64,000 nucleotides of DNA from Butyrivibrio sp. (lineage in GTDB: Bacteria; Bacillota; Clostridia; Lachnospirales; Lachnospiraceae), in assembly GCA_015056495.1 (NCBI GenBank), contig SVGC01000006.1, positions 1-64,000 of the forward strand. Direction: 5' to 3'. Shown in pieces: positions 5,865 through 36,483 of the stretch. The translations under genes were made by a program, and so were the position numbers. The notes below the pieces were generated by a model. It was not told the origin of the DNA. It did no database searches and saw only the letters and a list, made by a program, of their open reading frames with translations. Each line of letters begins with the position of its first letter. The first letter of the stretch is position 1.

Positions 5865-7220
5865 ATGAGCTTTTCTGATTTAAATTTTTTATTTAGATTT
5901 ATACCTATATTCTTGATTGTATATTATATTGCTCCGGCAAAACTCCGCATGTGGGTTCTTTTTGCCGGAAGCTTTATCTTTTATAGCTTTGGAGAACCAA
6001 AGCTGTTTGTTGTACTTCTTGTAACCTCAGTCGCCAATTACCTTCTGGCTAAGGCTTCCAAGGCACATGAAAAAGCTTTGTTCATTTCGATAATCACATT
6101 GGATGTTGCTGTTTTGGCTGCATTTAAGATGCTGAGCCTATGGGTGGACAGCAGTTTATTACCTGTTGGAATCAGCTTTTTTACCTTTAAGATGATCTCA
6201 TACCAGGCTGATCTGTACATGGGACGCTTGAAAAAAACTCTGAGTCTGAAAGATTCATTGAGTTATTTCTACATGTTCCCGCAGGTATTGTCTGGACCTA
6301 TCATGAGAGCTTCAGATATGCATATTGATGAAGTTGAAGGCGGCACAAGGCTTGAGAGGATTACCAGATATCTGTCTAATATAGAAGATGGCCTGAAATT
6401 CTTTGTTGCAGGACTTGGAATGAAGGTCTTACTGGCTGATCATTTTGCGATATGCTGGAAAGATATTTATGCAATTGGTTATGAAAGTATTTCGACTCCG
6501 CTTGCCTGGTTTGGAGCAGTAATCTATTCGATGAATCTTTATTTTGATTTCTGGGGATATTCACTTATGGCAGCTGGTCTTGGCGTTGCCTTAGGCTTCC
6601 CGTTTATACAGAATTTTGATCATCCTTATGCAGCCAGAGGAGTTGGAGAATTCTATAGAAGGTGGCATGTTACTCTTGGAACATGGTTTAGAGATTATAT
6701 CTATATTCCACTTGGCGGCAGCAGAGTAGGAAAGGTCAAAACTATCCGTAATCTGTTTATTGTATGGCTGATTACAGGTTTGTGGCATGGTGTTACAGTC
6801 AATTTTATCATTTGGGGACTTAGTCTTTTTTTGATCATCATTTTTGAAAAATTTGTACTGAATAAAAATAAGCTGCTAAGTATTGTAGTTGGAAGATTTA
6901 ACGTATTTGTACTGATCCCATTGACATGGGTCGTATTTGCTATATCAGATATGACGCTTTTACAGACATATTTTGCCAGACTGTTTCCATTCTTTGGTGT
7001 AGGTATTGCGATCAATCACAATGATATTTTTAAGTACCTTGGTACTTATGGTATTTTGACTGCAATAGGACTGGTATTACTTGTTCCTAAGGTCTTTGAT
7101 TTTATGGAGAGTAAAAGAAAACATCCTTTTGCTGTAATTGTTTTGTTCATATTATTTTGGGCTTGTGTGCTGAGTCTTTCCAACGCAGCAGGCAATCCAT
7201 TTTTGTACTTTAGATTTTGA
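5865..7220 (+). CDS. MBOAT family O-acyltransferase (AlgI/PatA-like)
   Basis: A polytopic 451-residue membrane protein of the MBOAT family. Family members pass acyl groups across the membrane to an extracytoplasmic polysaccharide or peptidoglycan acceptor. The conserved block FYRRWHVTLGTWFRDYIYIP is present, followed by GLWHG with the invariant active-site His at residue 308. About ten hydrophobic helices are evident, and length matches AlgI and DltB relatives. It is followed after 10 nt by an SGNH-hydrolase-like gene, the usual partner that completes acyl transfer outside the cell (as AlgI with AlgX/AlgJ, or DltB with DltD). No dltA or dltC is nearby, so D-alanylation is unlikely; O-acetylation of a wall or exported glycan is the best inference. 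Confidence 0.9.
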   Translation: MSFSDLNFLFRFIPIFLIVYYIAPAKLRMWVLFAGSFIFYSFGEPKLFVVLLVTSVANYLLAKASKAHEKALFISIITLDVAVLAAFKMLSLWVDSSLLPVGISFFTFKMISYQADLYMGRLKKTLSLKDSLSYFYMFPQVLSGPIMRASDMHIDEVEGGTRLERITRYLSNIEDGLKFFVAGLGMKVLLADHFAICWKDIYAIGYESISTPLAWFGAVIYSMNLYFDFWGYSLMAAGLGVALGFPFIQNFDHPYAARGVGEFYRRWHVTLGTWFRDYIYIPLGGSRVGKVKTIRNLFIVWLITGLWHGVTVNFIIWGLSLFLIIIFEKFVLNKNKLLSIVVGRFNVFVLIPLTWVVFAISDMTLLQTYFARLFPFFGVGIAINHNDIFKYLGTYGILTAIGLVLLVPKVFDFMESKRKHPFAVIVLFILFWACVLSLSNAAGNPFLYFRF

Positions 7221-29004: not shown

Positions 29005-29118
29005 GAGGTGAATTCTGAGCTGAAATAATGATGTTGTATATGCAATAAGTATCTAGATGGATAAAAGTATTATGAAAAGTTTGGATTGACTATTTTGCGA
29101 ATATTAGGAGAATGCTTC

Positions 29119-30147
29119 ATGAATGAGATGGTTGTAAAGACAAGGCATAAGGTTTTTTTGAGTAATCCAGTCCCGATGTTTTGTTCTAAAATAGATAACA
29201 GCGCTATAATTATCAGCTCAAGAGGAGATGAATTAACTATCCATATTAAAACAAGAAAGAATGAAGATAATTCAAAGCATTTGTTTTTTGACATTTATTC
29301 CATGCTATATATTTGCTTAGGGGCTTTTCCAAAAATTGAGTCGATGATGTTCAACGAGCGTCGATTAGACATTGACCATCTTGCAAAGAAATACTATACG
29401 CGCGAATCATTGTTTCGTAATGATTTGAGAATAGCAAATATTTGTGGTCAAACAATTAATCAGGCAATTATAGATAAGTACAGAATAAAGCAGCAGGAAC
29501 CAATATCGTCATTGCAGTATTTGGACTCGGCTGGCTATGATAGTATTGTGGCAGATCATAGAATAACATTATTATTGCATATAATAGATGGAATTTGCGA
29601 TGCGCAAAATACTGTTCTGACAGCCATCAGGGCTGAGATGATTAAGAAATACAAATTGAATGCTACTCAGCAAAATAATCTTAAGCCAGATAATCTTGGA
29701 AAGTATATCTGTAAAGCGTATATGGTGACAAATGAGTGCTTATTCTATTATCATAGAAAGTTTAATTGTGAGATATTGAAACTGATGCATATAAGTCAAT
29801 ATGAGTTTTTGTGCATGTTAAGTGATACGCGAAATTGGAATTCTCACTTTTTGAATAAAAAAAAGCCGAATCGGATAAAGGATGGTACCAAGATTGTAAT
29901 ATTCTTTGAAATCGTACACTACATGATCAGAATAAAAATAGCCAAAGATATAGGAATAAAACCGGATGAGGTAAGTATCAAAGAATACTATTATACAGTT
30001 CATGATTGGATTTTGGATATACTTTACAATAGAGATGATGCATTAAAATCTAAGATATACTTGGATAATAAGAGAAGAAAAGAGTTTCAGAAAGCAATTA
30101 AAAGTTTCCCAATCTGCCGGACTATAGATTTCCAGCAGAAGGGTTAG
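29119..30147 (+). CDS. HEPN-domain protein (ApeA-like), 3' end runs into IS remnant
   Basis: A 342-residue protein of uncertain function. Near the C-terminus, SDTRNWNSHF supplies the RNxxxH motif (Arg238, Asn239, His243) that defines HEPN ribonucleases, in the sequence form seen in ApeA-type HEPN proteins. These act in abortive anti-phage responses by cleaving RNA. The N-terminal half is a predicted alpha/beta region without motifs I recognise. I start at ATG 29119, which has AGGAG 8 nt upstream, rather than the TTG at 29086. The last codons overlap the stop of a transposase remnant on the other strand, so the native C-terminus may have been replaced. Possible defence gene; specificity unknown. 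Confidence 0.6.
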   Translation: MNEMVVKTRHKVFLSNPVPMFCSKIDNSAIIISSRGDELTIHIKTRKNEDNSKHLFFDIYSMLYICLGAFPKIESMMFNERRLDIDHLAKKYYTRESLFRNDLRIANICGQTINQAIIDKYRIKQQEPISSLQYLDSAGYDSIVADHRITLLLHIIDGICDAQNTVLTAIRAEMIKKYKLNATQQNNLKPDNLGKYICKAYMVTNECLFYYHRKFNCEILKLMHISQYEFLCMLSDTRNWNSHFLNKKKPNRIKDGTKIVIFFEIVHYMIRIKIAKDIGIKPDEVSIKEYYYTVHDWILDILYNRDDALKSKIYLDNKRRKEFQKAIKSFPICRTIDFQQKG

Positions 30148-33965: not shown

Positions 33966-34004
33966 AAAAAAATCCATAACCCCTGAAATATGGGATTATG
34001 GATT
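33966..34004 (-). terminator. Terminator hairpin in the MATE leader (putative attenuator)
   Basis: On the minus strand a 9-bp stem, extended by three G-C pairs past a one-base bulge, is followed by seven T residues. It ends about 10 nt before the MATE start codon and next to its ribosome binding site. A further stem (GGCGGA with TCTGCC) lies just upstream around 34016-34033. Position inside the leader points to regulated readthrough. I cannot match the upstream part to a known riboswitch class. Confidence 0.6.
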
Positions 34005-34122
34005 TCCTTACCGTGGCAGATATGCATCCGCCCTACTATCGATATTTATTATTTGTTCACTCAAAAAGTTATAACATGCAAAAACATTTTAGTCAAATAA
34101 AATAAAGATATAGACATAACAC

Positions 34123-34142
34123 TATTTGACGCACGTCAAATA
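34123..34142. promoter_or_regulatory. Palindromic operator-like site 1
   Basis: TATTTGACGCACGTCAAATA: a 20-bp palindrome broken only at its central pair. A second copy is centred 45 bp downstream, and both lie ahead of the HipA-like kinase gene. Confidence 0.7.
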
Positions 34143-34167
34143 ATATAATAATATATTTATGTAATAC

Positions 34168-34187
34168 TATTTGACGTACGTCAAATA
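34168..34187. promoter_or_regulatory. Palindromic operator-like site 2
   Basis: TATTTGACGTACGTCAAATA: a perfect 20-bp palindrome ending 28 nt before the kinase gene start. It would overlap or adjoin the promoter, as expected for an autoregulatory operator. Confidence 0.75.
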
Positions 34188-34215
34188 CTTTTGGGATTTA
34201 TAAGAGGATTGAGAT

Positions 34216-35025
34216 ATGGCAATTATTATCAAAGATAAGCAGGATCTAACGTATTTACGATGGTCACATATACGCAGTTCAAGTGGAACAGCAGGAACTT
34301 TTTTAAAAGCCACTTCAACATTGGGCGGAGCTAAGGAGTACTATAAATTGTCCAATTTCGATCCAATAAAAGGAGTGATTGGACATGAATGTGTCAACGA
34401 AATTATTGTTGATAGGCTTTTGACCCTGTTCAATATTGAGCATTTAGAATATAAGCTGATCAATGCAATGATTGAAGTAGAAGGAAATACATTTGACACA
34501 TATTTGTGCGCATCCAATGATTTTAAAAAGCCAGGTGAGAGTAAGATAGCTTTAGATGACTATTATAGAGTTAATTGTTTGTCTGGTGAGTCCCATTATG
34601 ATTTTTGTAAACGTATGGGGTGGCAGAAATATATTGATACAATGCTGGTAATAGATTTTCTTATTTTAAACAGAGATAGGCATGGCGCTAATATTGAAGT
34701 GTTAAGAAATGCCAGAGCTCATACTATCAGGATTGCACCATTATTTGATCACGGAGTATCGTTGTTATATTCTTGTAATACAGACAGTATGGCAGCAGAG
34801 TTTGATATATTTAGCGATAAACCTTGCAATAATTTTATTGGTACTTTTTCATGTCGTGAAAATTTAGAACTTATAGATAAGAATAGTAAGCCACTTGCAT
34901 ATAAGTTAAAAAAATCAGATAAAAAAATTATTTTTGATGGATTAGAAGATATTCTTTCAAAAATCTTTATAGACAAGATTTGGGAAATGATTTACGAAAG
35001 GTATAAAATCTATGAAAATCTTTGA
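34216..35025 (+). CDS. HipA/CtkA-like protein kinase
   Basis: A 269-residue protein with the kinase core of the HipA/CtkA group. A candidate ATP-binding lysine lies at Lys44 (EYYKLSNFD), the catalytic loop is NRDRHGAN at residues 152-159, and the metal-binding motif is DHG at 178-180 within APLFDHGVSLL. It is shorter than HipA (about 440) and lacks the HipA N-terminal subdomain, closer in size to the CtkA type. Preceded by two 20-bp palindromes and overlapping the next gene by 14 nt, it forms a two-gene module with the HTH-tailed protein. Family members phosphorylate proteins such as GltX and can act as growth-inhibiting toxins; that role here is inference. Confidence 0.75.
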   Translation: MAIIIKDKQDLTYLRWSHIRSSSGTAGTFLKATSTLGGAKEYYKLSNFDPIKGVIGHECVNEIIVDRLLTLFNIEHLEYKLINAMIEVEGNTFDTYLCASNDFKKPGESKIALDDYYRVNCLSGESHYDFCKRMGWQKYIDTMLVIDFLILNRDRHGANIEVLRNARAHTIRIAPLFDHGVSLLYSCNTDSMAAEFDIFSDKPCNNFIGTFSCRENLELIDKNSKPLAYKLKKSDKKIIFDGLEDILSKIFIDKIWEMIYERYKIYENL

Positions 35026-35809
35026 GATAATCGATGAAGAGAATCATATAGATATTGGTACATTACTATACTTTGAAAGAAAAAAAATATTTATAATTGA
35101 ACTAATGGATAATCTTGATGAATGGACTGCACCACTTATTTTTTCTAATTTTGTTACAAGGGGTATATATACTATTCAAAGAGAATTCAGTAAAATGTGG
35201 GTAAATGAAAGAATAATCCCCAGTGGCAGACAAAATATCGGATCAATATTGAAAAATCATAAATTACAATCATATGATGAAATGAAATTTCTTGAATTAT
35301 CGAATGGACGATGCTCTCAGGATAGTATGTATATTAAGAAAATAGAGCTACTTCCAGGATATGTACAAAAAAGAAATCTCAAAAACCTAATAGATTGTGT
35401 CGCATTGGATAATAATGAACTGCTATGTTTTTTTTATGATGATACAGTAAAGAAAATCAATATGGATTCGCTTCTCTCAGTAGAAGGCGTTGATAAAGTA
35501 TTAGAAAATAAAAGACTTTTCAATTCTTGCCAAGTTGGTGTTGGCGGATACTACATAACTTTTGATGATTCGATAGACATTCCTGCACAGATTTTATATG
35601 AAAAAGGGAAAAAAATTCCGCTTTCTTACAAGGATTTTATAAGCTTTGTCAGTTCAAATATTATTGATACGGCAGATGCTTGTGAGGTTCTTGAATGTTC
35701 TAGACAAAACATATCATACATGGTCAAACGTAACCAGCTAGCGCCATTAAAAGAAAATGTTAAAGGAAACCTGTTCCTAAAAGGAGATATAGTTAAATAC
35801 GAGCCATGA
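35012..35809 (+). CDS. Hypothetical protein with C-terminal MerR/excisionase-type HTH
   Basis: A 265-residue protein coupled to the kinase gene (14-nt overlap, GAAAGG upstream of ATG 35012). The N-terminal 210 residues have no motif I recognise. The last 45 residues read DTADACEVLECSRQNISYMV and then LAPLKENVKGNLFLKGDIV, the layout of the HTH_17/excisionase domain: helix-turn-helix, a short wing and a strand. It is the best candidate to bind the palindromes at 34123-34187 and to control or neutralise the kinase. Unlike HipB, the HTH is C-terminal and of a different class. Its last base pairs overlap the sfsA start by 4 nt. Confidence 0.6.
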   Translation: MKIFEIIDEENHIDIGTLLYFERKKIFIIELMDNLDEWTAPLIFSNFVTRGIYTIQREFSKMWVNERIIPSGRQNIGSILKNHKLQSYDEMKFLELSNGRCSQDSMYIKKIELLPGYVQKRNLKNLIDCVALDNNELLCFFYDDTVKKINMDSLLSVEGVDKVLENKRLFNSCQVGVGGYYITFDDSIDIPAQILYEKGKKIPLSYKDFISFVSSNIIDTADACEVLECSRQNISYMVKRNQLAPLKENVKGNLFLKGDIVKYEP

Positions 35810-36483
35810 AGTACAATAGTGTTATTCCGGCAAAATTCATATCAAGGCCTAATCGTTTTATCGCTAAAGTGGAAGTAGACGGCACAGAACTGACAGTCCA
35901 TGTCAAAAACACTGGAAGATGCAGAGAACTGCTGATTCCTGGCTGCAGGGTCTACCTTGAAAAAGCGGATAACCCTGAGCGGAAAACGCCCTATGACCTC
36001 ATTGCAGTGGAGCATGATGGAAGGATCATAAATATTGATTCTCAGGCGCCCAACAAGGTGGTCAAGGAATGGCTTGAAAGTCAGGGACAATATGACTTTA
36101 TTAAGCCTGAATATAAATATGGCAATTCCAGGATAGATTTTTACATGGAAAAAGAAGATACCAAATACCTTATGGAAGTGAAAGGGTGTACACTTTTTAT
36201 AGATGGCATAGGATATTTTCCTGATGCACCAACAGAGCGCGGAGCCAAGCACCTAAGGGAACTAGCCGCAGCTGTGAAAAAAGGTTATAAGACAAGAGTA
36301 GCCTTTGTTATACAGGGCGAAGGAATATCTGAAGTGCGTCCTAACACTGATACAGATCCTGAATTTGCTAAAGCTTTTGAAGATGCCAGGGCAGCAGGTG
36401 TAGAAGTTGTTTTTTACAAATGCAGAGTAACAGCTGATAGCCTGTGCATAGACTCAGAAGAAGTCTGCTCAAGCATAGGATAA
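35806..36483 (+). CDS. sfsA: SfsA family DNA/RNA nuclease-like protein
   Basis: A 225-residue homologue of sugar fermentation stimulation protein A. Family blocks present are RPNRFIAKVEVDG, HVKNTGRCRELL, DSQAPNKVV and the PD-(D/E)XK-like core EYKYGNSRIDFYM with YLMEVKGCTL (Asp, Glu and Lys of the nuclease site), then FPDAPTERGAKHLREL. In E. coli the protein was linked to maltose metabolism and binds DNA; its real activity is unclear. Length is normal. The ATG overlaps the stop of the HTH gene (ATGA), so it is translationally coupled to the kinase/HTH module although it is a widespread housekeeping-type gene. Confidence 0.95.
   Translation: MKYNSVIPAKFISRPNRFIAKVEVDGTELTVHVKNTGRCRELLIPGCRVYLEKADNPERKTPYDLIAVEHDGRIINIDSQAPNKVVKEWLESQGQYDFIKPEYKYGNSRIDFYMEKEDTKYLMEVKGCTLFIDGIGYFPDAPTERGAKHLRELAAAVKKGYKTRVAFVIQGEGISEVRPNTDTDPEFAKAFEDARAAGVEVVFYKCRVTADSLCIDSEEVCSSIG

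Follow-up and report, generated by a model that had tools for sequence, protein, structure and literature searches.

Two overlapping genes for a HipA-like kinase and a helix-turn-helix (HTH) protein, preceded by two palindromes, raise the question of whether they form a toxin-antitoxin module and, if so, where it stands among the Hip systems already known. The genes lie in the window, that is, the whole stretch of 64,000 nucleotides of Butyrivibrio sp. DNA analysed here. Both open reading frames (ORFs) and their overlap of 14 nt, as given in a preliminary description of the locus, were recovered at the same coordinates on the plus strand (Table 1). The GC content of positions 34001-36000 is 0.325, compared with 0.393 and 0.409 in the flanking 2-kb windows, and the 5' neighbour of the kinase gene is a MATE transporter gene on the opposite strand. 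Searches of the pair against Pfam and NCBIfam yielded no match above cut-off; the Pfam family HipA_C reached E 0.0083 on the kinase, under its family cut-off.

Table 1. Features of the module, in positions of the window
Feature	Position	Strand	Remark
Operator 1	34123..34142	.	TATTTGACG-CA-CGTCAAATA; 9-bp arms round a non-palindromic CA; holds the putative -35 box
Putative -35 box TTGACG	34126..34131	+	inside operator 1
Putative -10 box TAATAT	34149..34154	+	17-bp spacer; weak, with two mismatches to TATAAT, so outside the 72 of 86 regions given in the text
Operator 2	34168..34187	.	TATTTGACGTACGTCAAATA; perfect palindrome, 45 bp downstream of operator 1
Ribosome-binding-like AAGAGGA	34202..34208	+	5' of the kinase ATG; putative, read from the sequence
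Kinase gene	34216..35025	+	269 aa; HipA/CtkA-type core kinase without N-subdomain-1; putative toxin
Gly-rich loop region, residues 21-27	34276..34296	+	poorly ordered in the model, pLDDT < 50 at 21-26
Lys44, putative ATP-binding lysine	34345..34347	+	invariant in 24 sequences
Catalytic loop NRDRHGAN, residues 152-159	34669..34692	+	alignment of 24 sequences
DHG metal-binding motif, residues 178-180	34747..34755	+	alignment of 24 sequences
Partner gene	35012..35809	+	265 aa; HipS-like + DUF2442 + HTH; putative antitoxin/autorepressor
HipS-like domain, residues 1-112	35012..35347	+	
RIIPSGRQN, residues 67-75	35210..35236	+	most conserved stretch; putative equivalent of the HipS loop
DUF2442 domain, residues 122-204	35375..35623	+	fold match
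MerR/excisionase-type HTH, residues 210-265	35639..35806	+	

A core kinase and a partner of three domains

The modelled kinase has fold matches in CtkA and HipT/HipA, which supports the kinase class proposed in the preliminary description. The motifs named there (Lys44, NRDRHGAN and DHG) lie where they had been placed and are conserved: K44, N152, D154-G157, N159 and D178 are invariant across 24 aligned kinases, and H179 and G180 almost so (alignment A1 includes L027, a locus described below). Kinase fold, Gly-rich loop, ATP-binding Lys, NxDRHxxN and metal-binding Asp, the features of HipA-superfamily kinases, are all present. CtkA of H. pylori is the best match by both fold and sequence, yet the two proteins are 15-16% identical. 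The same genome holds four more HipA-like loci (C5:52096, C70:78335, C36:31858 and C36:49108), one of which carries Couple_hipA (E 8.3e-23).

An AF2 model of the partner (pLDDT 93, pTM 0.83) resolves into three domains. The C-terminal excisionase/MerR-type HTH is the one that the preliminary description had already recognised; the 210 residues ahead of it, left there as unrecognised, comprise a HipS-like fold followed by DUF2442, and this places the system among the Hip systems. For residues 1-112, the best fold matches in the PDB are HipS and the N-subdomain-1 of HipA. A direct profile comparison of Couple_hipA domains with the HipS-like domain was not significant (probability 0.56%), and a search of 21 partner members for PF13657 (Couple_hipA) gave no match at E 0.1, so that homology to HipS stands on fold and on intermediates. 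One intermediate in the chain of sequences from the partner to HipS is the N-domain of PDC-M03B/HipN, which is Couple_hipA above the Pfam cut-off; a second route runs through the HipS-only partners of related kinases at the loci L025, L027 and L214. The DUF2442 region matches NE0471 (2auw) in fold, with a weak sequence match over DUF2442 and the HTH (E 0.063), and PMC8198452 lists DUF4160/DUF2442 as the two domains that make up dhiTA, a toxin-antitoxin system. Unlike the partner and its kinase, NE0471 and DhiTA have neither a kinase nor a HipS-like domain in the parts compared. Our guess is that DUF2442 most likely serves for dimerisation or sensing.

Within the HipS-like domain one loop stands out. 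An alignment of 21 partners (A2) has 13 positions without variation, and R67, P70, R73, Q74 and N75 are five of them. Of all 256 windows of ten residues, residues 67-76 score highest, with a mean conservation of 0.81; the mean is 0.60 in residues 1-66, 0.66 in 77-110, 0.45 in DUF2442 and 0.58 in the HTH. The motif RxxPxxRQN is kept in L025, L027 and L214. Over a larger collection, 95 distinct sequences that were mostly motif-selected, loop conservation is 0.90, a biased value because the 80 loci behind it were found with a single peptide pattern, RxxPxxRQN itself; loop conservation was taken from A2, which was built by whole-protein searches and omits the partners of L025, L027, L021 (L055, two pieces) and L047 (internal stop) as well as the partial matches L058 and L060-L063. 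According to the accessible parts of PMC10627512 and PMC9325769, HipS inhibits HipT, and HipS binding blocks ATP binding of the kinase; a helix-loop-helix of E. coli HipS carries P62-E63-G64-W65, and the corresponding loop of L. pneumophila HipS carries E63 and I65, both making contact at or near the Gly-rich loop of the kinase. Fold and conservation suggest that residues 67-75 of the partner act like this kinase-entering loop. HipS Glu63 and Trp65 are not conserved in the partner, in which Ser71 and Arg73 would occupy these places.

Conservation, operators and decay of the module

The preliminary description made its case depend in part on whether the two genes stay together in other genomes; they do so in two overlapping sets of loci. 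Among 250 genomes of the family, that of the window included, the kinase found a match at E 0.001 in 90; counted were the 24 near-full-length kinases (E 4e-34 or better), those other than the window's being 32-77% identical, and the remaining matches are partial, mostly to the C-lobe, and fall on other HipA-like ORFs. The partner adjoins the kinase in all 24 near-full-length loci; its ORF, taken at its longest, begins anywhere from 44 nt ahead of the kinase end to 4 nt past it. It is of three-domain size in 22 of them (262-320 aa) and HipS-like only in the other two, L025 (112 aa) and L027 (123 aa). Some partner match occurs in 37 of the 250 genomes. The second set came from a partner-led scan of a GTDB genome collection, which gave 245 relatives; the best 80 were fetched, and their titles name mostly Lachnospiraceae or genera of that family. 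Among these best 80 of 245, the kinase lies upstream of the partner in 75 of the 78 loci with upstream sequence (L138 and L162 have none and were left out). Of these kinases, 73 were parsed as ORFs and two were recognised by tblastn (L089 and L102, excluded from all 73-locus counts), and 55 of the 73 parsed loci show the 14-nt overlap.

In a phylum-wide sample of 398 genomes, the partner was matched at E 1e-6 in 25. Two of these matches are full-length and come from the window's own genus, one is HipS-only (L214), and the others cover a single domain, DUF2442 or HTH. L214 belongs to another family of the same class, and its kinase adjoins the HipS-only partner. The module kinases, L214 and L027 form one group in a midpoint-rooted FastTree tree of 47 kinases, to which we give little weight because only the C-lobe was aligned for many of the 47. 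The HipS-like-only partners of L025, L027 and L214 measure 112-130 aa, and no DUF2442 or HTH was found downstream of them in the available stretches.

Both 20-bp palindromes of the preliminary description are where it put them; the second is perfect, whereas the first is interrupted at its centre. The window has two occurrences of the 20-bp pattern with up to three mismatches, where 0.03 would be expected, and the 16-bp operator core has two exact matches in the 3.93-Mb genome, both at the module. A look into other genomes, as had also been proposed, found the palindrome conserved along with the HTH protein in relatives. TTTGACGNNCGTCAAA, with up to two mismatches, is present within 330 nt upstream in all 73 parsed loci (best 80 of 245), and 60 of the 73 have at least two operator copies; the strict pattern appeared in 2 of 1460 mononucleotide shuffles and in 1 of 189 real control windows. 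A looser palindrome pattern, used without a shuffle control and after removal of identical site regions (97 reduced to 88), is present in 86 of the 88 distinct regions, the two regions without it being those of the HipS-only loci L025 and L027. An orphan partner, L088, from which the kinase is absent, has an operator just upstream. The presence of the operator thus tracks the HTH protein rather than the kinase.

The arrangement of sites is equally regular. In 62 two-site regions the operators are spaced 40-46 bp apart in 51 and 50-52 bp in six. A -10-like hexamer (up to one mismatch to TATAAT) stands 16-18 bp after the TTGAC hexamer of the operator in 72 of the 86 regions, compared with 10.6% for the same placement at random positions; the -35/-10 spacing is exactly 17 bp in 64 of the 72, and the promoter-bearing operator is the upstream copy in 53 of 55 two-site regions. 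A palindromic operator over the operon promoter, a trait of type II toxin-antitoxin systems, is therefore present, the promoter being assigned by consensus only. Exact copies of the operator core number 17 in the 250 family genomes and are spread over 11 of them: 15 at the module, one by a partner remnant (G177) and one at an unrelated place (G107). A control pattern was found in seven of the 250 genomes, once each, among the matches listed. Covariation of operator and HTH was considered and rejected: the variants CTTGACA and CTTGACG are mostly found in one clade, so that kinship and covariation are indistinguishable.

No conserved third gene was found in 100 loci of the two overlapping sets (ORFs of at least 100 codons, 25 largest clusters). 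The commonest flanking families are ABC ATPases (17 loci), XRE-type regulators (11, by reading) and sfsA (9), and since no family recurs widely, the neighbourhood gives defence no support. In the window, the start of sfsA (35806-36483) overlaps the end of the partner gene by 4 nt. By tblastn, 10 of the 100 loci have sfsA (one copy is incomplete, at the end of a contig, and L066 and L098 represent one genome); it lies upstream on the opposite strand in eight, downstream on the opposite strand at L091 and upstream on the same strand at L110. Given these differences in position and strand, a functional tie to sfsA was rejected, and the overlap with the partner is local to the window, as sfsA elsewhere is mostly upstream and on the other strand. 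Further away in the window, a 353-aa ORF (29086-30147) closes a low-GC stretch at about 16-30 kb; its match to Apea-like HEPN (PF18739, E 0.0018) is weak and under cut-off.

In 3 of the 78 loci (best 80 of 245) the kinase is lost or mostly lost and the partner gene is open: L088 (partner 6001-6786) has no kinase, L140 retains only the C-terminal end and at L156 the kinase is internally deleted. None of the 24 near-full-length kinases is without a HipS-like partner. Retention of the partner after loss of the kinase, together with the lack of partnerless kinases, fits the pattern of toxin and antitoxin; the lack of partnerless kinases among the 24 could also reflect plain co-inheritance. Partners decay too: in G153 the partner copy is interrupted by an in-frame stop and the kinase found no match, and in the only one of 72,556 plasmid records with the pair, pNP95 of Pseudobutyrivibrio xylanivorans, the first ~20 codons of the partner are in another frame. 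The remnant in G177 (C5:3788, L225), where the exact core stands by partner residues 89-118, indicates that the operator is conserved enough to mark a decayed module copy.

With the kinase as query, 50,697 phage records gave one partial match (29%), and two IMG/VR viral contigs carry relatives. L166 has both genes, which by our reading of the ORFs lie after lysis-like ORFs and beside AAA-like and Fic-like ones. On L167 a deletion joins residues 1-85 of the kinase to the last part of the partner's DUF2442 and its HTH in a 170-aa ORF (5989-6501), which keeps two operator-like sites upstream and sits, again by ORF reading, between HNH-like and terminase-like ORFs in a phage-like gene order; this fusion could be either a leftover of the module or a repressor that the phage has retained.

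Relation to known Hip and defence systems

Ten Hip gene organisations were described by Gerdes et al. (PMC8262856). The reversed gene order that the preliminary description took as distinctive is already published there: kinase-first pairs are known in which the partner is HipS alone, HipS with HIRAN, or resolvase-like, and hipAB too occurs reversed. Nor is a non-Xre partner new, being preceded by hipIN, hipJS and hipMP (PMC8262856) and, as far as the available part of PMC13092281 goes, by HipAD/DS-6. A HipS-DUF2442-HTH partner is absent from the organisations described in the text of PMC8262856 (hipMP and hipJS were compared by description only, and the partner may be related to HipP), and we found no description of a three-domain partner of HipS-like domain, DUF2442 and HTH among the papers listed in an open-licence library. 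The earlier proposal of a distinct toxin-antitoxin-like module therefore stands in so far as the pair is real, with a specific duplicated operator and a toxin-antitoxin-like build, and gives way in so far as the module falls among the Hip systems and has a remote relative, PDC-M03, listed by PADLOC.

Whereas hipBA combines a full HipA, including N-subdomain-1, with a small HipB encoded upstream, the window has a 269-aa core kinase followed by a 265-aa partner. The module resembles hipBST of E. coli O127:H6 and L. pneumophila, as portrayed in PMC8262856 and in the accessible parts of PMC10627512 and PMC9325769, in its core kinase without N-subdomain-1, its HipS-fold partner and its putative HTH autoregulator; however, hipBST consists of three genes in the order B-S-T and the module of two, kinase first, with HipS-like domain, DUF2442 and MerR/Xis-type HTH in the second. 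With hipIN, which is PDC-M03 of PADLOC, it shares the leading kinase gene, the overlapping downstream partner and its HipS-like start (L168; PMC8262856), but HipN ends in HIRAN and the window's partner in DUF2442 and HTH. HIRAN was absent among the families matched by 21 partner members, whereas L168 and L169, true M03B proteins, do carry it. The kinases are also remote from the M03A models (E 6.6e-10 for that of the window and 3.6e-14 for the best of 24 members), and the PADLOC candidate matches of the window pair are remote as a whole. A kinase followed by a HipS-only antitoxin, as at L025, L027 and L214, recalls hipJS (PMC8262856), from the description of which the window's partner is set apart by its 265 aa and two more domains. 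HipAD/DS-6/PDC-M66 similarly joins a HipA-like kinase to a non-HipB partner (DUF3037) in the available parts of PMC13092281 and PMC12548924, but the partner domains differ, and 4 of the 24 kinases match M66A, weakly (best E 3.8e-4). For HipA-like kinase and DUF3037, PMC12548924 reports that defence disappeared without the kinase and that cells suffered toxicity without the partner; PMC13092281 reports a HipAD kinase mutant that lost phage defence.

Proposed function and mechanism

What these findings make probable is a bicistronic toxin-antitoxin module of the Hip type, in which the partner is kinase inhibitor and autorepressor in one chain. Chance adjacency or an artefact is refuted, to the point of being negligible, by the conserved pair, the 14-nt overlap in 55 of 73 parsed loci (best 80 of 245) and the conserved operator. 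A more serious alternative is a signalling or autoregulatory pair without a toxin, whose kinase would phosphorylate the partner or itself to control the operon, or else some host pathway, with no growth arrest. A kinase with an HTH protein and an autoregulatory promoter layout would suit it, as would the finding that, in the 250 genomes, 16 of the 17 exact cores adjoin the module or one of its remnants and that the only visible target is the module's own operon; toxin-antitoxin control, however, fits such a target better than signalling does. The HipS-type inhibitory domain of the partner, the loci that have lost the kinase and retained the partner, and the patchy presence (24 of 250 genomes) with plasmid and viral carriage all speak against signalling, which we consider improbable.

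If the toxin-antitoxin mechanism is right, its use may be anti-phage abortive infection, with DUF2442/HTH or the contact between kinase and partner as the phage sensor. The nearest listed relative is a PADLOC candidate defence system, PDC-M03, although the matches to it are partial and remote; PDC-M66 (HipA and DUF3037), in the accessible parts of PMC12548924 and PMC13092281, defends and behaves as toxin and antitoxin. On viral contig L166 the pair keeps company with lysis-like, AAA-like and Fic-like ORFs (by ORF reading), but no flanking family recurs apart from ABC ATPases, XRE-type regulators and sfsA. On balance we rate this use at somewhat under an even chance. Maintenance of plasmids or chromosomal segments (addiction), or else antibiotic tolerance, appears distinctly less likely: the pair is present on pNP95 and lies near sfsA, in differing orientation, in several Butyrivibrio genomes, yet a single plasmid record of 72,556 has it, and with a partner that looks damaged.

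For the toxin-antitoxin reading, we infer how the module may act from what computation shows, namely the fold of the kinase, the domains of the two proteins, the operator and the layout of the promoter. By its family, the core kinase domain would be the toxin, phosphorylating an essential host protein so that growth stops. Fold, conservation and the published HipS-HipT structures suggest that the HipS-like domain of the partner docks on the N-lobe of the kinase, where the RxxPxxRQN loop, set against the Gly-rich loop, would keep ATP out. The HTH would bind both operators, and because operator 1 covers the -35 box, the complex of kinase and partner would repress its own promoter. With HipS-like inhibitor and HTH in one chain, a single protein would do the jobs of HipS and HipB in hipBST. 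Loss of the element or a phage trigger could then free the kinase and arrest the cell. A bolder picture, which we put forward as speculative and rather doubtful, is of a mainly Lachnospiraceae subfamily of Hip systems in which HipS holds the kinase, DUF2442 reads a phage or cell signal, the MerR-type HTH occupies two operators separated by about four turns of the helix, a single event releases the kinase and at the same time opens the promoter, and the target of the kinase is new.

A HipS-like inhibitor and a DNA-binding domain, split between two proteins in hipBST, are thus found here in one chain, and DUF2442 gains a place in a kinase system. Cultured carriers of the module exist, Butyrivibrio hungatei DSM 14810 (L098) being one.
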